The notes beneath the pieces are model-generated. The model was not told where the DNA came from. It ran no database searches and worked only from the letters and a program-made list of their open reading frames with translations. Made by a program: the position numbers and the translations under genes. Below are positions 4,110 through 43,349 of a stretch of 45,501 nucleotides of DNA, one piece after another. The stretch comes from Methylococcaceae bacterium. GTDB taxonomy: Bacteria > Pseudomonadota > Gammaproteobacteria > Methylococcales > Methylomonadaceae. The stretch is taken from positions 1 through 45,501 of the forward strand of contig CANNKG010000018.1 of the NCBI GenBank assembly GCA_947505105.1. The letters are read 5' to 3'. The number at the start of each line of letters is the position of its first letter. Position 1 is the first letter of the stretch.

Positions 4110-6992
4110 ATGAACCAGTTAACTATAGCTCCTGGCACGAGAATTGAGTTAAGAGATGAAGAATGGTTAGTTCGTCGGGTCGATTTTACTACTAGCGGCG
4201 GCCACCAGCTCACCTGCATTGGTTTAAGTGAACTAGTCAAAGATAAGGAAGCTATTTTCCTGGACGAATTGGACAATAATTCAACATTTGGCACCCGTAT
4301 CAATGTCCTTAAGCCAGAAGATACTGAATTCGTTCAAGATCAATCTGATGGTTTTATCGATAGCAGACTTTATTTGGAGGCACTATTAAGAGAGTCGCCA
4401 CCTACTGACAATAAGCTCTATATCGGCCATCGTGCGGCAATGGATGTGGTTCCTTACCAAATGCAACCAACCATCCAAGCATTAAACCAACCTAGACAAC
4501 GCATCTTGATAGCTGATGCGGTAGGGTTGGGTAAAACTTTGGAAGCCGGTATTCTGGTTTCGGAACTGATGCGCCGTGGCAAAGGCAAACGCATTCTCGT
4601 AGTTGCCGTTAAATCCATGCTTACTCAATTTCAAAAGGAATTCTGGAACCGTTTTACCATTCCTTTAACCCGACTCGATTCGGTGGGCATACAACGGGTA
4701 AGAAATCTGATTCCTTCCAATCACAATCCGTTTTTTTATTTCGATAAAGCCATTGTTTCAATGGATACCTTAAAACAGGGTATCGAATACCGCAATTATC
4801 TGGAAAATGCCTACTGGGATATCATCGTCATCGATGAAGCCCATAACGTGGCGGAACGATCCGGCAGTAGCCAACGCGCACGACTGGCAAGATTGCTTTC
4901 CACCCGTTCCGACACCCTGATTATGCTCTCGGCTACTCCACATGATGGTCGGGCAAAAAGTTTCGCCAGCTTGTTAAATATGCTGGATGCAACGGCTATC
5001 GCCAATCCAGAAAATTACAGTAAAGACGATTATGCCGATAAAGGCTTGGTGATCCGGCGTTTTAAAAAAGATATCATCGATCAGGTAAAAGGCGAATTTA
5101 AAGAACGTAAGACGCAGCAGATTAAAACACCCGCTTCTCAATCAGAACAAGCGGCATTTGATTATTTAACTGAAATTCAGTTTGCTAAAATTGACCAAGT
5201 GCGTTCAGCAGGAATTCTGTTCAAAACCACCCTGACCAAAGCGCTGTTTTCCAGTCCAGCGGCCTGCAAGCAAACTATCCAAAACCGCTTGAAAACATTG
5301 GATCAGAAACAGGATGCAGCCTATCAGCATGACTTTGAGCAACTCACAGAATTGTATGACCTTTTAGCAAAAATTAATGTCGAGCAGTTTTCAAAATACC
5401 AATGTTTGGTTAAAACCATTAACGATCCACATAATGGCATAGGCTGGAAACCAAATGATGCCAAAGACCGAATCGTCATTTTTACTGAACGTATCGAAAC
5501 TTTGAAATTTTTGCAAGAACACTTGCAGCAGGATCTTAAGCTCGAAGATAATCAAATTGAAGTGTTGTATGGCACTTTATCGGATACTGAACAACAACGT
5601 ATTGTTGAAGATTTCGGGCAGGAAAATACCCCAGTACGCTTATTACTTTGCTCAGATGTTGCTTCAGAGGGTATTAACCTGCATTATCTCAGCCACAGGA
5701 TGATCCATTTTGATATTCCTTGGTCACTGATGGTATTCCAGCAACGTAATGGCCGGATTGACCGTTATGGACAAGAACATTCCCCGCATATCATCTATTT
5801 AATGACCGATTCCGGTAATGATATCATCAAAGGCGATACTCGTATTTTGGAAGTCCTGATCGAAAAAGATGATCAAGCCATGAAAAACATTGGCGATCCG
5901 TCGGTATTCATGGGTGTTTACGATAGTGATGCAGAGGAACTGATAACTGCGCAAGCTATCGAAAAAGGCATTACTGCTAGCGCTTTCAATCAACAACTGG
6001 AAGCAAAAGCACACGATTTTGATTTATTTGCCGAAGACTGGTTTGCCACGGATACTGAAACCACGGCTGATCCCATCAAGGAGACCTGCGCTATTCCCAG
6101 TTTGTTCAAATCCGATTTTGATTACCTGTCGAATGGTATACAACGTCTTGCCGAAAGAGAAACTCGTGATCGGATAACCCAGTTTCAAGCCAATCCAAAA
6201 CTACAGCGTGTTGAATTTACCGCTCCATCCAGTCTGGAATTACGTTTTAAATCGCTAAGCAAGGAAATCTGGCCCAGCAATGGACAATTTATCCTTTCAG
6301 CGGAGAAATCCGCTATTGAAGCTGCTATCAAAGAAAGTCGGCAATCCGAACAAAGTTGGCCTCTGGTTCATTATCTATGGGAACAACATCCGGTATTCCA
6401 ATGGCTCAATAATAAAGTTGCGAGCAGTTTAAAACGACAGCAGGCTCCAGTTATTATCGCAGGTGATAAATTGGCAACAGGTGAAGCGATTTATATTACC
6501 TACAGTCTGATCGCCAACCAAAAAGGCCAACCCTTAATTCAACGCTGGCTGGGCATCCGATTTGTTAATGGCGCCTTCAAAGATATTGAACCCTTAGAAA
6601 TTTTGCTGAATAGAACCGGCTTAGCTCAAGGTTTACCTAATTCAGGTGAGGCATCAAATGCGCTTATCCAGCTTAAAGCACCGTTACCAGAAGTTGTTAA
6701 ACACGTCAGAGAGAAAATGTCGGTTTATCGTAAAATTTTTGAACAGGAAAACCGACCCAAATTAAACGATCAACTGGCAAAGCTTGAAAAATTGGAACAT
6801 AAACACATTCAGCAGCTAGATATTTTTATTGATTTTAACGAGCCATTGTCTGCGAACAAAGAAAAGCTCTATCAGGAAGAAAGCCAAGCCATACGCAGCC
6901 GATTCGAAGAATACCGGCAATGGATACAAGAAACCATGAATACCGAGGATCAGCCTTACATCCAGATTATTGCCGCCATTGTTAATCAATAA
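4110..6992 (+). CDS. SNF2-family helicase/translocase, DISARM DrmD-like
   Basis: The 960-residue product is a superfamily 2 ATP-dependent DNA translocase. The N-terminus (PGTRIELRDEEWLVRRVD and the GLSELV region) forms the small beta-rich domain seen in DrmD-like helicases. Motif I is DAVGLGKT at residues about 136-143, motif II is DEAH at 242-245 and motif III is SATP at 274-277. The C-terminal helicase lobe carries SDVASEGINL and QQRNGRIDRYGQ, the latter the arginine-finger motif VI. A charged C-terminal third follows. DrmD is the SNF2 subunit of class 1 DISARM, a methylation-based phage defence system; assignment here is by overall style and the downstream methyltransferase. It opens the operon, with AAGGATGA a few bases before the ATG. 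No nuclease domain is visible. RapA-like helicases are the main alternative. Confidence 0.88.
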   Translation: MNQLTIAPGTRIELRDEEWLVRRVDFTTSGGHQLTCIGLSELVKDKEAIFLDELDNNSTFGTRINVLKPEDTEFVQDQSDGFIDSRLYLEALLRESPPTDNKLYIGHRAAMDVVPYQMQPTIQALNQPRQRILIADAVGLGKTLEAGILVSELMRRGKGKRILVVAVKSMLTQFQKEFWNRFTIPLTRLDSVGIQRVRNLIPSNHNPFFYFDKAIVSMDTLKQGIEYRNYLENAYWDIIVIDEAHNVAERSGSSQRARLARLLSTRSDTLIMLSATPHDGRAKSFASLLNMLDATAIANPENYSKDDYADKGLVIRRFKKDIIDQVKGEFKERKTQQIKTPASQSEQAAFDYLTEIQFAKIDQVRSAGILFKTTLTKALFSSPAACKQTIQNRLKTLDQKQDAAYQHDFEQLTELYDLLAKINVEQFSKYQCLVKTINDPHNGIGWKPNDAKDRIVIFTERIETLKFLQEHLQQDLKLEDNQIEVLYGTLSDTEQQRIVEDFGQENTPVRLLLCSDVASEGINLHYLSHRMIHFDIPWSLMVFQQRNGRIDRYGQEHSPHIIYLMTDSGNDIIKGDTRILEVLIEKDDQAMKNIGDPSVFMGVYDSDAEELITAQAIEKGITASAFNQQLEAKAHDFDLFAEDWFATDTETTADPIKETCAIPSLFKSDFDYLSNGIQRLAERETRDRITQFQANPKLQRVEFTAPSSLELRFKSLSKEIWPSNGQFILSAEKSAIEAAIKESRQSEQSWPLVHYLWEQHPVFQWLNNKVASSLKRQQAPVIIAGDKLATGEAIYITYSLIANQKGQPLIQRWLGIRFVNGAFKDIEPLEILLNRTGLAQGLPNSGEASNALIQLKAPLPEVVKHVREKMSVYRKIFEQENRPKLNDQLAKLEKLEHKHIQQLDIFIDFNEPLSANKEKLYQEESQAIRSRFEEYRQWIQETMNTEDQPYIQIIAAIVNQ

Positions 6993-7051
6993 CGGACAAT
7001 ATTCTTGATTTGGTGTATTGTTTAATGAAATCATACACACAGGAGAAGCCC

Positions 7052-7246
7052 ATGCGCACCAACATCAGCATAGATGATAACTTAATGGCCGATGTGCTAG
7101 CGGCAACCGGCATTAAAACCAAACGGGAAGCGGTAGAGCAAGGCTTAAAAATCTTGTTACTGCTTAAGCAGCAAGAAGCCATCAAGGGGTTTAAAGGTAA
7201 ATTAAAGTGGGAAGGCAATCTGGAGCAAATGAGGACTGACAGTTGA
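7052..7246 (+). CDS. vapB: VapB-type antitoxin (ribbon-helix-helix)
   Basis: The product is 64 residues, taken from the ATG at 7052, which sits behind an AGGAGAAG ribosome-binding site. An upstream in-frame ATG at 7010 would add 14 poor-looking residues. MRTNISIDDNLMADVLAATG followed by TKREAVEQGLKILL is the beta strand plus two helices of the RHH fold of VapB (DUF2191-like) antitoxins, which bind DNA as dimers. The C-terminal part would wrap the toxin. Its stop overlaps the toxin start by 4 bases, so the pair is translationally coupled. Autoregulation of the pair would be expected, although it sits inside a larger operon. Confidence 0.85.
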   Translation: MRTNISIDDNLMADVLAATGIKTKREAVEQGLKILLLLKQQEAIKGFKGKLKWEGNLEQMRTDS

Positions 7247-35697: not shown

Positions 35698-35914
35698 GAC
35701 CATAATGCTACTTCTAAAACTTTTAACAACATAACCAAAACTGAGGATTTCTTGATCTACTTTGGACATATAATGCCCGCTAGCAATATTTGGAATATTT
35801 TCAGCAGTCAGATCATCCAGAAACGCCATAAACAGCATTCCTTCAAATAATCCAGTTACTTCGACACATTCAACGAAAAGCAGAAAGTTGCATATAAAAT
35901 TTATTCACACAGTG

Positions 35915-36328
35915 TCAGGGTTTCTCGCATCTCAAGTAAGTATTAATTTGCACCGCCAAAGGTTCGTCACCTTCCATCACAAATCCTTTAGCTTTAAGGA
36001 GTTCCATGATCCGTTGATTTTCTTTATAGAATTCGCTCTCCAGTCGCGCATTTTCAATAGGATCATCCGATATCATATGTCCTGTAGAGATAACTGGCAG
36101 ATATTCAATGCTACCATCAACTCGAATTCGAACGTGTTCATCCGAAGTCATACGATGCGAGGCATAATAATCCAGATATTCGCCCTGATCATCCTTATCG
36201 AACAAAAACCATATACACCAACCGGCCACAAGAATTTTACCTCGTTTCCGTTGAGCAACTTGCTCTTCAGGTAATGTAATAGACCAGTTCGAGAAGCGAT
36301 CATTAAAAATACGGACTATTTGTTCCAT
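35915..36328 (-). CDS. Hypothetical small protein, convergent with the defence operon
   Basis: The product is 137 residues, with an AGGAG site 9 bases before the ATG. It has a basic patch (QRKRGK) next to a hydrophobic, aromatic stretch (ILVAGWCIWFLFD) and then an acidic, helical C-terminal half rich in Glu and Asn. The hydrophobic stretch looks like a beta strand core rather than a membrane span, because it is short. I do not recognise a family. It faces the UvrD gene tail-to-tail across about 217 bases and has the 80-bp repeat array directly upstream (36379-36897), so those repeats may affect its expression. The coherent composition and good ribosome-binding site support it over the overlapping plus-strand open frame. 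Confidence 0.6.
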   Translation of the reverse strand: MEQIVRIFNDRFSNWSITLPEEQVAQRKRGKILVAGWCIWFLFDKDDQGEYLDYYASHRMTSDEHVRIRVDGSIEYLPVISTGHMISDDPIENARLESEFYKENQRIMELLKAKGFVMEGDEPLAVQINTYLRCEKP

Positions 36329-36378
36329 TCCATTTAGCTCCTGTGATTTTGCTTAATTATTCATCGTCACAACCGTCA

Positions 36379-36458
36379 TGTCGTCATCAATTCGGTTGTT
36401 GTCACGTTTACATCATTGAATAATAATAGAACATGACAGCGTAACAACGATGACGACA
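36379..36458 (+). repeat. 80-bp palindromic repeat, unit 1
   Basis: It begins with TGTCGTCAT and ends with ATGACGACA. Inside are TTGTCACGTTTACA, CATTGAATA and ATGACA in the same order as the other units. Confidence 0.8.
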
Positions 36459-36513
36459 CCTATGACGGAATCATTATAAAGCGGTACTGACAAGTATCAT
36501 GATGACGAGGTTA

Positions 36514-36594
36514 TGTTGTCATCGCTCTCTAAAGTTGTCATGTCTAAGATATTGATTAGTAATCTTAAATGACAAGATGACGACAGTGACGACA
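36514..36594 (+). repeat. 80-bp palindromic repeat, unit 2
   Basis: It starts with TGTTGTCAT and ends with ATGACGACAGTGACGACA. The internal TTGTCATGTCTAAGATATTGA and AAATGACA words match other units, with more divergence in the middle. Confidence 0.75.
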
Positions 36595-36666
36595 TGTTGC
36601 AAGGTCACTTTGGTCTTATAACGGCAAGTTATCTTGCTTATATCGTATGCCGCAATGACGATGCTA

Positions 36667-36746
36667 TGTCGTCATAAATCCAGTTATTGTCACGTTTACA
36701 GCATTGAATATAAAGTTAAAATGACAGTATGACGACAGTGACGACA
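36667..36746 (+). repeat. 80-bp palindromic repeat, unit 3 (closest to consensus)
   Basis: It contains TGTCGTCAT, then TTGTCACGTTTACAGCATTG (20 bases, nearly identical to unit 1), then AATGACA and ATGACGACAGTGACGACA. Confidence 0.8.
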
Positions 36747-36819
36747 CCTTGACAGAATCGTCATTAAGTCGCCCGCGGCAATTATGCTATGGGAGTAATC
36801 TGGTAAAATGACGACCTAA

Positions 36820-36897
36820 TGTCGTAACAAATCCAACCATTGCCATGCTTAAGATATTGAATATTATGTTAAAATTTCACCATGTCGATCATGTCAA
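36820..36897 (+). repeat. 80-bp palindromic repeat, unit 4 (degenerate)
   Basis: It starts with TGTCGTAAC and keeps CTTAAGATATTGAATATT and GTTAAAAT, but the right end has decayed to CATGTCGATCATGTCA. It ends just before the stop codon of the HTH gene. Confidence 0.55.
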
Positions 36898-36904
36898 TAT
36901 ACTC

Positions 36905-37852
36905 CTACCCCAGTAATTCTACATATTCCCAGTTGTCCATGAAAAAACTCGCTGCTTCATCTCCATAAACAGCGCCTATTTCTAGGGAAAGTGACTGCCA
37001 AAAATCCCCTTGCTGGTTCTCACCAATAGACTCTGAAGCCTCATACGAAGCTATTTTCCCGCTAAGAAAAGCTATTATTGCAGCACTTTTATAATCTAGT
37101 TCTGAATCTGAATCTGAATCTGAATCTGAAGATTTGATTTTTTCCAATTGACGGCGGAAACGTTCAAGAGCTCTTGCATCAGGGGAGCGAAGCAATGACC
37201 AAACGGGTTCCTGTTCGGCCAGTGACTGTTCTTCTGCGACCAGCAATGCCTTTCCAATTTCAGACATTGTGGAAAAGCCTTCATCTTGTTGTATAAAAGC
37301 ACAAAATTCGCCATTAATAACGCCACCAACCATTTCAGCAATCGGCTCTTCGTCGCTTTCAAATACGTTTACAGACATGCGATCAGTGAAGTTTCCGTGT
37401 TTACTGTATGCCCATTGTTCTATTGCAAAGATAGAATCGCTTGTAATGGTTTTATCGACAATAATATTAAAATTTCTTAACTTGCTTTCGGTAAATGAAA
37501 GCATCTGAGTGCAATCAATTCCAGCGCTTTTGTCCATGATGATAATAGCAGAGCTAGCTGATGATAATAATTGAGCTGTACCTTCAAAACTCATTTCTAT
37601 CGCCCCGCCTAGAATTTCCCTTTTGAATGTTATAGCAAATTTGTTGTAACAATCATTCAGACTATATTTGAATTTCCGGTACAGCTTGCCAAGCCTAGTC
37701 AAATTGAAAAAATCTTTCTGATTCCTCAATCCTTTATTGAGTGTTTGCGGCGTTATCTTTAGATATCGGGCGATGTCAGCTTCGTGTAGAGTTGCATCAC
37801 AGTCAAATAAATCATGGATTCGTTTGATAATATATAAATCGAGTTCGCTCAT
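36905..37852 (-). CDS. HTH-containing protein next to the replication module (possible regulator)
   Basis: The product is 315 residues if started at 37852 (SELDLYIIKRIHDLF, with GGAAAAG about 9 bases upstream); an ATG 27 bases earlier is also possible. Residues about 20-45 form a helix-turn-helix (ATLHEADIARYLKITPQTLN followed by KGLRNQ). The middle looks like an alpha/beta domain (SSASSAIIIMDKSAGIDC). Near residue 240 a Ser-Asp run (SSDSDSDSDSELD) is encoded by five copies of a 6-base repeat. The gene is divergent from the SF3-like ATPase gene across about 158 bases that contain a 14-base palindrome, so it probably regulates itself and that gene. A replication initiator is an alternative. 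The C-terminal half is unrecognised. Confidence 0.7.
   Translation of the reverse strand: MSELDLYIIKRIHDLFDCDATLHEADIARYLKITPQTLNKGLRNQKDFFNLTRLGKLYRKFKYSLNDCYNKFAITFKREILGGAIEMSFEGTAQLLSSASSAIIIMDKSAGIDCTQMLSFTESKLRNFNIIVDKTITSDSIFAIEQWAYSKHGNFTDRMSVNVFESDEEPIAEMVGGVINGEFCAFIQQDEGFSTMSEIGKALLVAEEQSLAEQEPVWSLLRSPDARALERFRRQLEKIKSSDSDSDSDSELDYKSAAIIAFLSGKIASYEASESIGENQQGDFWQSLSLEIGAVYGDEAASFFMDNWEYVELLG
37101..37130 (+). repeat. Hexanucleotide tandem repeat (TCTGAA)5 inside the HTH gene
   Basis: Five exact copies of TCTGAA encode Ser-Asp repeats on the minus strand. Changes in copy number would keep the frame and vary the length of an acidic linker. Confidence 0.85.
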
Positions 37853-37928
37853 AGATACTTTTCCAAACATGCAATGCAATTTGTAAATATAACGCTTTTT
37901 GCTTTCAAATAGTGTTTTAAAACTCGTA

Positions 37929-37942
37929 TCAACTAAAGTTGA
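37929..37942. promoter_or_regulatory. Palindromic operator candidate between divergent genes
   Basis: TCAACT-AA-AGTTGA is a palindrome with 6-base arms, located 76 bases upstream of the HTH gene start and 68 bases upstream of the ATPase gene start. It reads TATCAACTA at its left side, the same core as the words at 3601, 3754, 39837 and 42982. Confidence 0.5.
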
Positions 37943-38010
37943 CGATTTCTGACTGGCTGATTCAACCGCTCTAGAATTGCAATTTTTAATTCAAACATCG
38001 AGTAACCACA

Positions 38011-39510
38011 ATGACAAGAGCAAAAAAAGCTGTTCTATCCCTGGTAGAAGATACCGTAGTTGGAAATTCCCAAATTAATTTGGAATTATTCGAAAAAATC
38101 ATTTCACATGATCCGGTTTTAAAAGGCAACCCAGTTAGATTATATCGTAGTCACGACGGAAAAGATTTTGTTGAATTGGTCGGTAAAGGGATGAAAAAAC
38201 ACGGGTTGATGATCCTATCTTCAAAGGCGTTTAAAAAAACTTTGAATTACTATCACTTAAGCAACAATCCGTTATCAAGTATGGATGCTATTGAAAAAGA
38301 TGTAAATGAGGCCATTAAAAAGCTTGACGCGATTTTTGAAGGTGAAGTTAATCCTCAACACATTTTTAATCGTATTGCCAATTTGGGAGATACGATTTTT
38401 GTGAATTTGAATAACGACGCGAAAGAAGTAGTTAAAATCACAGGAGATGGCTGGGAAACCATCACTGAATGTCCGGTTCTCTTCATTCCTTCTAATAACG
38501 CGCTTGAAATGCCAAAGCCAGAAACAGGCGGAAGTCTGGAAGACCTGACCGAGCTATTTAATGTTGATGACGATAGCGCAAAACTTATTGCGGCCTCAAT
38601 CCTTATGATGTTTCGCGGAATGGGTCCTTATCCAGTATTGAATTTGATTGGACCTCAAGGTTCTACAAAAAGTACCACAGCAACAATTATTAGAAACCTC
38701 GTTGATCCGGTACGTCATCCTTTACTCCAAATTCCCAAGAGCGTTCATGATCTCAATGTTGTCGCTGCAAAAAATGCAATTTTGAATCTCAATAATGTTA
38801 GCAAACTGAGCGACGCGATTAGCGATGCTCTTTGCGTTATTGCTACAGAAGGCGGGGCTGCTAATCGAAAGTTATTCACGAGTGATGACGTGGTTGTTCT
38901 TGAGAATAATCGACCTATTATTATAAACGGGATAACCCGCGCGATTAATCGTGGAGATTTGATTGATCGGACCATTTCCATTCATTTGCCGAAAGTATCA
39001 AAAGAGGATCGTAAAACGCGAAAAAAAGTCATGGACGAATTCGAACGGAGACACTCACGTATTTTAGGTATGTTGTTTGATGGGGTTGCTGCTGGTTTGA
39101 AATACTTCGATACAATGGAACCAAATGGCTTACCTCGCATGGCGGATTTCGCACAATTTATTTGCGCGGCAGCGAAAGGGATGAATGGAAAGATGGACTC
39201 TTTCCTTGAAATTTACAATAACAATCAGGAAGAAGCATTGAATGACACTTTGGAAAATTCGGTTACAGTTCAAGCTATCAATAATTTGATGATATCAAAG
39301 AAAAGTTGGACCGGACCAATGTGGAAGTTACTCTCAGAATTAAAGGTTCATCATAATAATTGTATGGGGGCACTTCCAGACAACGCGCAAACGTTGAGAA
39401 ATGAGATTCGACGTGTCGAACACTTGCTAACCATTGAAAACATCACAATAGAGCAACTCCCTCGAAAATCTGGAGAAAGACCTTACATCATCACAAAAAC
39501 CATTATTTGA
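38011..39510 (+). CDS. SF3-like helicase/primase-associated ATPase
   Basis: The product is 499 residues. The ATPase core has the P-loop IGPQGSTKSTT near residue 213, a LNLNNVSKLSDAISDALC stretch that replaces Walker B, the ATEGGAANRKLFTSDD segment and RPIIINGI...GDLIDRTI. These are features of a family of phage and plasmid ATPases related to primase-helicases and D5-like proteins. The N-terminal ~180 residues are mixed alpha/beta and unrecognised. The inferred role is DNA unwinding at the element's origin. The gene is divergent from the HTH gene and is followed by an 80-bp repeat unit at 39583. The ribosome-binding site is weak (GAGTAACCACA), yet the ATG is the natural start. No primase catalytic motif is visible, so it may need a partner. 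Confidence 0.8.
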   Translation: MTRAKKAVLSLVEDTVVGNSQINLELFEKIISHDPVLKGNPVRLYRSHDGKDFVELVGKGMKKHGLMILSSKAFKKTLNYYHLSNNPLSSMDAIEKDVNEAIKKLDAIFEGEVNPQHIFNRIANLGDTIFVNLNNDAKEVVKITGDGWETITECPVLFIPSNNALEMPKPETGGSLEDLTELFNVDDDSAKLIAASILMMFRGMGPYPVLNLIGPQGSTKSTTATIIRNLVDPVRHPLLQIPKSVHDLNVVAAKNAILNLNNVSKLSDAISDALCVIATEGGAANRKLFTSDDVVVLENNRPIIINGITRAINRGDLIDRTISIHLPKVSKEDRKTRKKVMDEFERRHSRILGMLFDGVAAGLKYFDTMEPNGLPRMADFAQFICAAAKGMNGKMDSFLEIYNNNQEEALNDTLENSVTVQAINNLMISKKSWTGPMWKLLSELKVHHNNCMGALPDNAQTLRNEIRRVEHLLTIENITIEQLPRKSGERPYIITKTII

Positions 39511-39582
39511 GTAATAGCTAACCAAAAACGGTATTTAATCTACCGCTCGAAATTGTTTAATTCGAATCTATGACGACTCGGG

Positions 39583-39662
39583 TGTCGTCATAGATAGCTA
39601 GATTGTCACTCTTAAACAGTTGAATATTAAATAATAATGACACCATGACGACAGTGACAACA
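39583..39662 (+). repeat. 80-bp palindromic repeat, unit 5 (isolated copy)
   Basis: TGTCGTCAT, ATTGTCAC, GTTGAATATTAA, AATGACA and ATGACGACAGTGACAACA occur in the order and spacing of units 1-3. It lies about 2.8 kb from the cluster, just beyond the ATPase gene. Confidence 0.8.
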
Positions 39663-39836
39663 TATTTTAAAGCCCAGCTATTCTTTGTTCGTTATCCAAT
39701 TCCCCACTCCATCACAGTAATTTATTTGTCAATTTAATAGCTCAGGCTTATCCATATTTTTTGCCGTAGTTCGTCTATTTAATTATTTTTACAAAGATTT
39801 CGTTCCCAGCCGGTAAAAAATAAGCGAAATAATATC

Positions 39837-39853
39837 TATATCAACTAGTTACA
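39837..39853 (+). repeat. TATCAAYTAGTTA word, copy 3
   Basis: TATATCAACTAGTTACA matches 3754-3770 exactly, about 36 kb away. Confidence 0.55.
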
Positions 39854-39983
39854 AGCCATTCTGTCCCATCCTGTCTGTCTGGAATACGATACCGGTTGCA
39901 GCCTGAATTGTCGCTATCGGTCGTGCCAGATGCAGCTATCTGCATTATCCTAAACCAGGTGACAACTCATCTCGGATAACAAC

Positions 39984-40374
39984 ATGCAACGCCTACTCGA
40001 CATCGGCTTTCGACACGTCGGCTGCTGGACCGTTAATGATAAAAATCTCAGCTTTGAACTTGACACTTCAATAACCTCAACGAATGCACTGTACGCCTTT
40101 ATCGACAGCGACACTGTTCTTATACATTGGTAAGACCACCCGATCACTTGCCAAGCGCATGTATGGCTACGAGCGTCCAGGTTCAACGCAGCTAACGAAT
40201 CTCCGCAATCACGCCAATCTCAAAGAATTGCTCGCTCAAACCAACGCGGTTGAAATTTTCGCATTGCCTGATCACGGACTGCTCCAATACGGCCCATTCA
40301 AAATTAATTTAGCGGCAGGATTGGAAGAAAGTTTGATCAAAACATTCAAACCAATTTGGAATAATCGACAGTAA
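39984..40374 (+). pseudogene. GIY-YIG nuclease-family gene, broken by a +1 frameshift
   Basis: Two overlapping frames together form one protein of about 129 residues. The first runs from the ATG at 39984 (MQRLLDIGFRHVGCW...) to a TAA at 40131. The second reads LYIGKTTRSLAKRMYGYERPG through to 40374. The switch lies around 40116-40120: removing one base there joins ALYAFIDSDTV to LYIGKTT, the expected GIY-YIG motif order (YAF...LYIGKT). The later STQLTNLRNH and NLAAGLEESLI segments with the terminal PIWN also fit this family, which cuts DNA with a single metal. The gene is therefore either a recent pseudogene or carries a sequencing error. GGATAAC lies before the first ATG. It sits between the two helicase genes, a common place for accessory nucleases in mobile elements. 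Confidence 0.75.
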
Positions 40375-40902: not shown

Positions 40903-41128
40903 ATAACGTCGACATCATATAGCGGTTTTTTGCCGCAACACAAATATAAATTACGATTTACCTATGCTTGGCGTTATCTCGTTCTTCGCCAATGGTTTTT
41001 TGTCGTTGAACCGGATAGCAATTTTTTAAATATTTTGTCATGCCCGTCTTCTGTGGAAATCAGAAGCCATTCGTGACTTTAGATTACTGCTGATGAGCGT
41101 GTGGCATTTCCTCCCGGAGGATTTGAAA

Positions 41129-42901
41129 ATGCAAAACGACGACTCAGATGATGAAGACTTTGAGGACCAAGAGGACGACGACGATTACGCAACCAATGCC
41201 CTGAAGCAACGGAACGCTGAAATAAATTTGCTGCGGCAAAGCGGGAGATTTATCGAAGCCTATCTTTGCAACAACGCAGCGCTGGAATTTCTACAGAACG
41301 TCCAAACAATGTCTGCGCTTAATTGTGGAAAGCGAGTTAAGGATGATGCAATAAAAGAGTTGCTGGAAGCAATTAACGACGACCGAGACTTAGTTGGCGA
41401 AGTGGTTAGTCTGTTAGATAAGCAGGGCTACAAATTGCCTAAAATCGAGGCATCGCCGCACTCTGATAAAGCGAAAGTAATGCCGAAATTGACTGAGGTT
41501 GTACAATCGGCTCTGGGAGTGCTAGAGCCATCGTTGGTTGTTAATTTTCCAGTTGCAACGAACACGGTATTTAATTCGTTAGATCCTCCGTCAGATACTT
41601 TAACGCCGGAACAGGCATTAGATTGGTGCCGGAGCAGGTTCATTTTCGCGCTGGTAAACAAGAAGTTTCGCTTGGTCGATTTGAAGTATTTCGATCCTGT
41701 GACTGAGATGCTGTGCCTTGAGCCTTACGATGTGACTGAGCTGAATCGGTTTTTTGGTTGGTGTTCGGTTGCAATACCGATCACCAACAAAGCTGGGAAG
41801 CCTGATTTTATACTTCGAAAAGTTATTGACTATTTCGAAGCTAATGAAAAACGACGTTATGAACAGATTGTTTTCTCACCTGGAGGAACGCTACCACCTA
41901 ACATTTTTAATACGTGGAAAGGTTATGCGGTAACTCCGTTAGCGGGCTCTTGGGCGAAGTTGGATCGGCATATCTTGGAGGTTCTTTGTGACAATGATCA
42001 AGGTCATTACCAATATTTTTTAGATTTGTTGGCAAACCTAGTTCAACTGGATCAAAAGCCGGGAGTTGCAATCGTTCTGGTTGGCAAAAAGGGTACAGGA
42101 AAAAGTTTAGCTGTTAGTTATATCGGGCGAATCTTCGGTAGACATTATGCTCAACTCACGAAACGCGACCATCTTCTCGGTCGCTTCAACTCAAACTTAA
42201 TCGACAAGCTGTTGATCTTTCTCGATGAAGGTTTTTGGGGTGGAGACAAGGTTGCAGAGGGAGCCCTAAAGGGGCTAATTACTGAAGATCAACTTACAGT
42301 AGAAGCTAAATTTGAAAATGTCAAGTCAGTGGTCAATCACATTCGCATAGTTATGGCATCTAACGAGGACTGGGTGATACCAACATCACATGACGAGAGA
42401 CGTTATTTTGTATTGAGAGTGTCAGATAAATGGATTGGAAATTACAAGTATTTTGAAGAGCTTGCGTATGAAATGGAGGGCGATGGACCAGCGGCAATGC
42501 TGCATGATTTGCTCAAAAGAAAATACGACATTAAAAAATTGCGATCGGCTCCAAGGAGTTCGGAGTATGCGAGTCAAACGTTTCAGTCGGATCCAGTGTT
42601 CCGGTTTCTGGTTAAGTGCATTGATAGAAGCAGTTTACTCGATCCGGCAATGAATGGTGGTGTTCTGGCTTGGGGCGCGGTAGTCAAAGACGATTTACAC
42701 AAGGAATTTCAGATGTTTAGAAATTGTGAAGGACAAAAACACCCCGAGAATAAGGTTAATTTCGGGCGAAAGTTAAAGGAGTGGTTGCCGATGATTGGGA
42801 CAACTAAGATAAATGGAATGCCAGCGCATAACTTTCCGCAGATTGAAGAATGTAAAACTGCAATTGAAGCGGTTCTTAAGACACCTTGGCATTGGAATTG
42901 A
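41129..42901 (+). CDS. DUF5906-type phage/plasmid primase-helicase (SF3-like)
   Basis: The start is set at 41129 because CGGAGG sits 8 bases before that ATG; an ATG at 41093 would add 12 residues and lacks such a site. The product is 590 residues. An acidic N-terminus (DDSDDEDFEDQEDDDD) leads into a helical region. The ATPase domain has VLVGKKGTGKSLA near residue 319, LLIFLDEGFWGG near 366, GLITEDQLTVEAK, and the IRIVMASNEDWVIP sensor segment followed by DERRYFVL. This order defines the DUF5906 helicases of satellites, phages and plasmids, in the family of P4 alpha and D5. It would unwind the origin just upstream. Only the helicase half is present; a primase active site is not seen. It is the second ATPase of this type in the module. 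Confidence 0.88.
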   Translation: MQNDDSDDEDFEDQEDDDDYATNALKQRNAEINLLRQSGRFIEAYLCNNAALEFLQNVQTMSALNCGKRVKDDAIKELLEAINDDRDLVGEVVSLLDKQGYKLPKIEASPHSDKAKVMPKLTEVVQSALGVLEPSLVVNFPVATNTVFNSLDPPSDTLTPEQALDWCRSRFIFALVNKKFRLVDLKYFDPVTEMLCLEPYDVTELNRFFGWCSVAIPITNKAGKPDFILRKVIDYFEANEKRRYEQIVFSPGGTLPPNIFNTWKGYAVTPLAGSWAKLDRHILEVLCDNDQGHYQYFLDLLANLVQLDQKPGVAIVLVGKKGTGKSLAVSYIGRIFGRHYAQLTKRDHLLGRFNSNLIDKLLIFLDEGFWGGDKVAEGALKGLITEDQLTVEAKFENVKSVVNHIRIVMASNEDWVIPTSHDERRYFVLRVSDKWIGNYKYFEELAYEMEGDGPAAMLHDLLKRKYDIKKLRSAPRSSEYASQTFQSDPVFRFLVKCIDRSSLLDPAMNGGVLAWGAVVKDDLHKEFQMFRNCEGQKHPENKVNFGRKLKEWLPMIGTTKINGMPAHNFPQIEECKTAIEAVLKTPWHWN

Positions 42902-42913
42902 AGCGTGACAGAT

Positions 42914-42937
42914 CTATCCCAGCCCCGTCCGGGATAG
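42914..42937. terminator. Hairpin just downstream of the helicase gene
   Basis: CTATCCC (42914-42920) pairs with GGGATAG (42931-42937) 13 bases after the stop codon. It has no T-tract, so it could be a weak or factor-dependent terminator or a protein site. Confidence 0.35.
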
Positions 42938-42956
42938 GTGCGAGATAATGGAAACC

Positions 42957-43115
42957 CATCCAGGACAAATTAGACTATATATATCAATTAGTTATATTAT
43001 ATAGAATAGATTCCTAGATAAAAGTTATAAAAATTAAATAGTTATGCTTTTATTTTAGGGGTGGGAGAAGGAAAAAGGGCTCAGGGAAGGATTGGTAAAT
43101 TCATCTAGGATCTAG
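42957..43115 (+). repeat. Right copy of the dispersed non-coding repeat
   Basis: It is a diverged direct copy of 3545-3740, with exact blocks CATCCAGGACAAAT and TATCAATTAGTTATATTA and weaker similarity beyond. It starts 55 bases after a helicase gene stop; the left copy starts 51 bases after the topB stop. Confidence 0.7.
42982..42999 (+). repeat. TATCAAYTAGTTA word, copy 4
   Basis: It is identical over 18 bases to 3601-3618. Confidence 0.55.
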
Positions 43116-43151
43116 GAAAAATTAGTAAAGTTGTTATAAATCAATAATATA

Positions 43152-43195
43152 AATGGGATAGATGATTTTGGGTATCTAGGTTCATCTATCCCATT
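43152..43195. repeat. Perfect 14-base inverted repeat
   Basis: AATGGGATAGATGA (43152-43165) and TCATCTATCCCATT (43182-43195) are exact reverse complements around a 16-base loop. It has no T-tract, so it is more likely a protein site or RNA structure than a simple terminator. Confidence 0.75.
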
Positions 43196-43349
43196 GCAAG
43201 AAAAGTCCAGCATCAAGACTCAACCGCAATTGCATTAAGCGGCAGCCGTTAAATGGGTGTTCGGAGGTCATAGCAGATACATGCAACCATCTTAACTCCA
43301 TCTAAACGTTATGTTGGATGGTTAACTTTAAAAAAACTAAAGGATTTTT

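Follow-up and report, generated by a model that had tools for sequence, protein, structure and literature searches.

What are the five copies of an 80-bp palindromic repeat that surround the gene for a 499-aa ATPase in a Methylococcaceae genome? The window analysed here is one entire contig (C18; 45,501 bp) of a 5.1-Mb genome assembled in 307 contigs, and the repeats had been described in a sequence-only reading of it, which proposed that they are initiator sites, partition-protein sites or a transcribed hairpin family. Our working hypothesis, to which we assign a probability of roughly 70%, is that the units are iteron clusters that together form the replication origin of a mobile element and are bound by the ATPase encoded at 38011-39510. 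Of the earlier options, initiator sites is thus the best supported, with the ATPase as the likely binder and not the neighbouring protein that had been labelled as a helix-turn-helix (HTH) protein. The features on which this proposal is built are as follows.

36379-36458, plus strand: unit U1, with CGTCA and TGTCA, an AT-rich core (36406-36432), then TGACA and TGACG; the copy in common with contig C180
36501-36594, plus strand: unit U2 with leading inverted box; 80-nt register 36515-36594
36654-36746, plus strand: unit U3 with leading inverted box; top match to the unit model (89.5 bits)
36807-36899, plus strand: unit U4 with leading inverted box; degenerate, ending just ahead of the stop codon (36905) of a minus-strand gene
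38011-39510, plus strand: 499-aa ATPase, proposed replication initiator helicase, with Walker A motif GPQGSTKST, AAA+/D5-SF3-like core and winged-helix-like C-terminus (residues ~418-497)
39570-39662, plus strand: unit U5 with leading inverted box, ~60 nt downstream of the ATPase stop codon

The units start at 36379, 36514, 36667, 36820 and 39583, with spacings of 135, 153 and 153 nt between the first four, and on this point the coordinates and a position weight matrix (PWM) bear out the initial description. Scored on a matrix built from the other four units, U1 to U5 reached 57.0, 33.6, 76.3, 49.7 and 54.8 bits, while the maximum outside the units was 6.5 bits on the forward and 12.3 bits on the reverse strand of the contig and 11.1 bits on both strands of 20 dinucleotide shuffles of it. 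The box TGACGACA occurs 10 times in the contig and nine of these occurrences are inside the two repeat blocks, which comprise 692 bp and for which the rest of the contig predicts 0.02. The same 692 bp contain 17 TGACG and 13 TGACA, and nowhere else in the contig are 9-mers clustered as densely as in the array (eight boxes versus at most five elsewhere and in shuffles).

Each unit is a dyad in which TGACG/TGACA boxes surround an AT-rich core; the 27-nt cores are 78-85% AT versus 60% for the contig, and TTGAATA is present in four of the five. In the unit coordinates of U2, U3 and U5, boxes begin at -10/-11 (+), 3/4 (-), 22 (-), 56 (+), 64 (+) and 73 (+), such that 4/73 and 22/56 are mirror pairs and the dyad centre falls inside the TTGAATA stretch. 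The original description therefore stands, subject to several corrections. U2 to U5 start ~10 nt earlier than described, with an extra inverted box (ATGACGA) ahead of the opening TGTCGTCAT, while U1 has three CGTCA boxes on its left side and lacks the box at 64. Only U2 and U3 have an exact copy of the closing tandem ATGACGACA-GTGACGACA; U5 has GTGACAACA and U1 a single good box at this position. U2 opens with TGTTGTCAT and carries ATTGATTA in place of CATTGAATA, where U5 carries GTTGAATA. U4 is degenerate: it opens with TGTCGTAAC, has TTGCCAT as its inner box and has lost its right arm, retaining core and spacing and little beyond these and the leading box.

Next to the units, the ATPase could not be assigned to a family, as neither Pfam nor PHROGs nor NCBIfam gave a weighty match. 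Most of its length is homologous to plasmid proteins, one of them from pFP11 (NC_006911.1; 29.8% identity over 382 aa), and tblastn recovered relatives in 28 plasmid records, 20 of them from Streptomyces. Relatives are also present in 33 of 301 genomes of an order-level sample and, at E<=1e-20, in 12 of 398 genomes of a phylum-level sample (own genome included in both), while a search of a genome-contig collection confirmed none. An alignment of 11 family members revealed an AAA+ core and a conserved C-terminal domain. An AlphaFold2 model built with nine of these sequences (L114 and L118 were left out; L numbers denote loci) has a predicted local distance difference test score (pLDDT) of 60.7 and a predicted template modelling score of 0.62, with most C-terminal blocks at ~80, and its C-terminal domain follows the helix/strand order H-E-H-H-E-E, similar to a winged helix. 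The top structural matches were the SaPI5 primase-helicase (7ola; Z 12.3, root-mean-square deviation (rmsd) 6.2, 287 residues aligned) and PriRep1 with double-stranded DNA (7pds; Z 11.7, rmsd 7.4, 277 aligned), and both alignments span the C-terminal domain. Because the scores of MCM, African swine fever virus PrimPol, magnesium chelatase, poxvirus E5/D5 and NrS-1 primase are only slightly lower, the model is more safely described as an AAA+ replication helicase than as a SaPI Rep. A profile of the ATPase searched against sequences in the PDB was uninformative, as the best 60 of 129 matches included Walker-A matches, mostly to ABC transporters.

We then considered the DNA around the homologous ATPase genes, where iterons were at first sought without an assumed sequence. 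Strong clusters of boxes lie just 3' of the ATPase gene, or inside its 3' end, in most Streptomyces-type plasmids, in a Chlorohelix plasmid and at some loci from the same phylum as the window, and the boxes (GTGACGCAG, GGGACGCAC, GGTGACGC, TGTGACGCT and TGACGGAT) share (T/G)GACG. As in the window, the boxes at the loci shown are grouped in inverted orientation, and the spacer between them is often AT-rich. Clusters were then scored as dense [TG]GACG from -700 to +1100 nt of the ATPase stop codon, using 200 shuffles and p<0.01. Of 74 loci, L080 and L083 were dropped because the open reading frame (ORF) runs off, leaving 72 including the window, in 17 homologue clusters at 45% identity; 67 of the 72 are distinct, as five loci are represented twice (L009/L091, L020/L087, L021/L092, L022/L088 and L073/L124, none significant). 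Sixteen or 17 loci (L107 prints as p 0.010) in six of the 17 clusters were significant: 11 or 12 in the Streptomyces-type clusters 2 and 4, two of 12 in cluster 1, one each in clusters 9 and 14, and one of eight in cluster 3, which is perhaps chance. The Chlorohelix plasmid has 12 boxes in 300 bp beginning 8 nt past the ATPase stop codon (shuffle mean 0.7), and L011, L095 and L119 have 15, 11 and 15 boxes, respectively. Because the choice of motif was to be removed from the comparison, all 512 5-mers were ranked over 71 loci, with the window excluded. TGACG and GTGAC share the top rank (z>=6 in three clusters and five loci), and the next best reaches two clusters. A GACG core is common to the pFP11 group and several other lineages, though not to most loci, and the box of the window is thus one of the two most recurrent near homologues, although it is not evident at most loci. 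Because the annotated regulators beside homologous ATPases differ (GntR, another HTH protein or none named), the likeliest common binder of the boxes would be the ATPase itself. As separate observations, the iterons of L095 (genome G028; 5526-5767) belong to the coding sequence in the 3' tail of the ATPase gene and give rise to MTDR-like repeats in the protein, and the 15-box cluster of L011 begins 318 nt ahead of the ATPase stop codon.

This arrangement can be compared with characterised replicons. According to PMC3583192, in which sections 7 and 8 concern pWTY27, the replication locus of pFP11 consists of a rep gene and iterons bound by Rep; from its position beside the iterons, the ATPase homologue of pFP11 would be this Rep. 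Theta replicons of the pFP11/pFP1 type in Streptomyces resemble the window in that short iterons with a GACG core are grouped in inverted orientation near the 3' end of a homologous ATPase gene, but differ in that a PrimPol gene precedes the ATPase gene (in the 13 Streptomyces-type plasmids read; L074, L076 and L099-L109) and in that the iterons (GGGACGCAC) were found in one block 3' of it. By contrast, the window has no PrimPol neighbour that we could find, has TGACGACA/TGACA as its box and has five separate, similarly built dyad units, four of them on the other side. SaPI Rep is reported to recognise an iteron origin directly downstream of its own gene via its C-terminal domain, and the C-terminal domain of Cch2 of SCCmec was shown to bind a putative origin downstream of cch2 (both PMC7581432). 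If the modest model of the ATPase is right, the window would share with these proteins the AAA+/D5-type initiator fold with a C-terminal DNA-binding domain, and iterons lie near the gene in both cases, whereas identity in the structural alignment is ~10% or less, the Cch2 iteron is AAGTG and the unit layout is another. In pRN1, a 100-nt stem-loop origin lies just downstream of orf904, the gene for a primase-helicase with a C-terminal winged helix (PMC4234260); type of initiator, winged-helix C-terminus, origin length and position are similar, but the stem-loop is of unconserved sequence and has no repeated TGACG boxes. Finally, neighbourhoods of P4/DUF5906-type primases (L054, L056 and L058) have a primase-helicase gene with TTGTCA/TGCCA-type boxes next to it, placed around AT-rich DNA, but they match the unit model weakly (E 6e-4 to 1.6e-3 per genome) and their genes seem to belong to a different family from the 499-aa ATPase.

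The repeats with their dyads and AT-rich cores, the homology and general fold class of the ATPase, and the TGACG clusters near some of its homologues are observations; from these we infer how binding, melting, origin activity and primase supply might be connected. The C-terminal winged helix of the ATPase would bind the TGACG/TGACA boxes on both sides of a unit, placing two ATPase assemblies face to face across the AT-rich TTGAATA core; the core would melt, and the AAA+/D5-type helicase would load and unwind the DNA. Because no PrimPol gene was found beside the ATPase gene, the primase would be supplied from elsewhere, either by the DUF5906 primase-helicase, encoded at 41093-42901, or by the host. 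The presence of several units may raise the strength of initiation or control copy number by titration and handcuffing.

Two genes lie among and beside the units.

36905-37852, minus strand: "HTH" protein of 315 aa if translation begins at the ATG, or 324 aa if it begins at a TTG (37879)
35915-36328, minus strand: 137-aa gene whose start codon is 50 nt from U1; a second copy (96% identity) adjoins the U1 copy on C180

The HTH label could not be substantiated: comparison of the 315-aa protein with Pfam, PHROGs and NCBIfam gave no weighty match, and a single-sequence model with a pLDDT of 38 is useless. Neither this protein nor the 137-aa protein has a match in the 236 other genomes of the family and, therefore, co-occurrence could not be used. 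The gene also contains a perfect five-copy TCTGAA tandem (37101-37130), which encodes a serine-aspartate run.

Where else does the unit occur? In its own genome, the unit model found six strong copies, five at this locus and one on C180; two more matches at E<0.01 come from these units read on the reverse strand, and the next independent match has an E-value of 0.037. The sequence-only reading had named hundreds of chromosomal copies as the observation that would contradict it, but with six copies the unit is not a chromosomal repeat of the repetitive extragenic palindrome (REP) type, and the many dispersed copies expected of REP/bacterial interspersed mosaic element (BIME) or miniature inverted-repeat transposable element (MITE) families are not seen. 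Among 237 genomes of the family, 87 (own included) have matches at E<=0.1; outside the own genome nothing is better than E 3.2e-4, and most of these matches are probably chance. Of five weak matches with listed genes, three lie beside primase-helicase genes (L058 and L054/L056, the last two being near-copies of each other at 97%) and two (L049 and L053) beside unrelated genes. The exact pattern of the right arm had no match in collections of genome contigs and viral contigs, a search from which the own genome was possibly excluded and in which diverged copies would be missed; blastn of 36330-40000 against plasmids gave no match, and no earlier report of these repeats was found in the open-licence literature. 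We conclude that the set of probable origin units is locus-specific.

The sixth copy (C180:7307-7419) is 93% identical to U1 plus flank and is part of a 665-bp block (window 35794-36458; 93% identity) that includes the 137-aa gene and that C18 shares with the 9,619-bp contig C180. The block stops exactly at the last base of U1 (ATGACGACA), and beyond it the contigs differ: C180 has a gene for an IHF/HU-like protein (Pfam Bac_DNA_binding, E 7e-25) and others in place of U2 to U5, the HTH-labelled gene and the ATPase gene, and no ATPase gene is present on C180. In that contig (locus L037 of G000), the 137-aa gene (6927-7232) and the U1 copy adjoin the IHF/HU-like gene. Weak similarity returns 35 nt past U5 (52/70, E 3e-4), followed from 39917 by a 78% block that covers a gene with a sub-threshold GIY-YIG match. 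This GIY-YIG-like gene (39984-40374) is likely frameshifted in the window, judging from a gapped alignment: the start codon of the C180 homologue has its counterpart in an ATG at 39984, but the open frame starts at 40084. A remnant of U5 on C180, suspected by eye, was not recovered by local alignment.

Several observations weigh against an origin bound by the ATPase. Only U5 adjoins the ATPase gene at its 3' end, while four of the five units are on the far side of the HTH-labelled gene, and the region around the ATPase stop codon of the window has three boxes (p 0.47), a non-significant result because only U5 falls inside the tested region. Elsewhere, 55 or 56 of the 72 loci and 11 of the 17 clusters were not significant near the ATPase stop codon; the largest group, with 24 loci, has no significant one (best p 0.04). 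The [TG]GACG motif was picked after part of the loci had been seen, its lead in the 5-mer ranking is narrow, two of its five loci in that ranking (L099 and L104) are near relatives (93% DNA identity), and the orientation of the boxes relative to the core varies between lineages. In the structural comparison, the MCM matches (Z 11.4) are less than one Z unit from the SaPI matches, which amounts to a tie, and the quality of the model is modest. As for autonomous replication, the ends of C18 do not overlap with each other. No PrimPol gene was found among the scanned neighbours, unlike at the Streptomyces loci; because none is named beside the Stanieria homologues either, an adjacent PrimPol gene may not be a defining trait of the family as a whole. 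What an origin by itself fails to explain is mainly the edge of homology exactly at U1, which could have arisen by recombination at the repeat or could reflect a second element using the same initiator.

The same edge would fit a scheme in which the units are recombination or transposition sites, i.e. cassette ends or a MITE-like family bounding exchangeable modules, as the shared block ends at the last base of U1 and weak similarity resumes just past U5. We consider this quite unlikely: U1 to U4 form a direct array with conserved central cores and not terminal repeats around a cargo, no unit was found at the other edge of the shared block (35794), the suspected U5 remnant was not recovered, and homologous exchange at the repeat would account for the block edge. 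Moreover, Pfam scans of the window, which took in 20 of its 34 listed ORFs of at least 80 aa, revealed no transposase or integrase. In the same scans no ParA or ParB was found, leaving the earlier suggestion of partition-protein sites unsupported. A centromere-like site bound by a partition protein of the element would fit repeated dyad arrays near an unknown DNA-binding candidate, and in the Streptomyces plasmids L074, L099 and L104 parA is the next gene after the ATPase gene, with TGACG boxes between the two. However, the boxes of the Chlorohelix plasmid come after the ATPase gene in a neighbourhood where no partition gene is named, and those of L095 are inside the ATPase gene; because of these positions, the boxes track the ATPase and not a partition gene, and we regard a centromere as very unlikely.

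Alternatively, the units could be operators or promoters through which the HTH-labelled protein or the ATPase regulates the 137-aa gene, its own gene or neighbours, with TTGTCA and AT-rich hexamers as -35 and -10 elements. Consistent with this, 36300-39700 contains 23 promoter-like hexamer pairs compared with 10.6 (sd 3.6) in shuffles, 10 of the 23 lie wholly inside units, and U1 is 50 nt upstream of the start of the 137-aa gene. On the other hand, the divergent intergenic region between the HTH-labelled and ATPase genes (37853-38010) has no unit and a single TGACG, U2 to U5 are not directly ahead of an obvious gene start, and five 80-bp dyads with AT-rich cores exceed what an operator needs; an exclusively regulatory role thus seems unlikely, and regulation could coexist with origin function. 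The transcribed hairpin family proposed earlier is highly improbable. Both strands of U1 (z -3.9 and -4.3) and the minus strand of U2 (z -3.5) give better folds than shuffles, as does U5 to a lesser extent (z -2.1 and -2.7), but the other folds have z from -1.5 to +1.0. Of the 10 folds, counted by strand, seven have a z-score higher than -3, and the units are not predicted to adopt a common structure. Furthermore, the RNAalifold covariation term is unfavourable (+1.81), with two-sided change in two of 24 pairs, from six sequences with little power, and no Rfam family matches at its gathering score. Each of these four explanations is weaker than an origin bound by the ATPase.

Extending the origin proposal, we tentatively consider a broader scheme that we think doubtful as a whole, in which an initiator-helicase family without a Pfam model would recognise one TGACG iteron across three phyla (Actinomycetota, Chloroflexota and Pseudomonadota), the element would have five discrete and self-contained dyad origins, and the C180 unit would be a trans-acting satellite origin or an incompatibility (titration) site of the same initiator.

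With respect to setting, positions 1124-35697 hold a series of large genes for helicases and methylases with DISARM-, Druantia- and type-IIG-like PADLOC matches, which the units border on the right, and we infer that the contig represents a mobile element. A genome assigned to the same phylum has a stretch identical over 4,107 bp to a plasmid of Methylobacterium bullatum, in line with a host that most likely belongs to the Pseudomonadota. The contiguous set at 1124-35697 includes genes for a type IA topoisomerase, SNF2, PIN, type-IIG-like methylase and RecD-like (PADLOC PDC-S68) proteins, a 2626-aa sacsin-like ATPase, and DrmD-like, Druantia DruE-like and UvrD-type proteins; by its gene content it looks like a single very large defence island or composite system. 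Directly 3' of the DUF5906 gene (42902-43200), a repeat set that differs from the 80-bp units, with GGGATAG/CTATCCC four times in 280 bp (six in the contig) and ATCTAGG three times, flanks AT-rich DNA and may be a second origin module. Near the contig ends, 141 bases at C18 45361-45501 are identical to C180 6-146, probably a repeat (perhaps the end of an insertion sequence) at which the assembly broke.

The value of these findings lies in the comparative TGACG link and the unusual five-unit layout. An unexplained palindromic repeat becomes a testable origin, for which there are a single short box (TGACG), a single candidate binder and five natural site variants, one of them decayed. A Pfam-less initiator family that keeps its iteron core in several lineages and phyla, as suggested here, would help to predict the origins of unclassified plasmids and islands. 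If our proposal is true, this origin would tell how DNA rich in DISARM-, Druantia- and type-IIG-like defence genes is copied.

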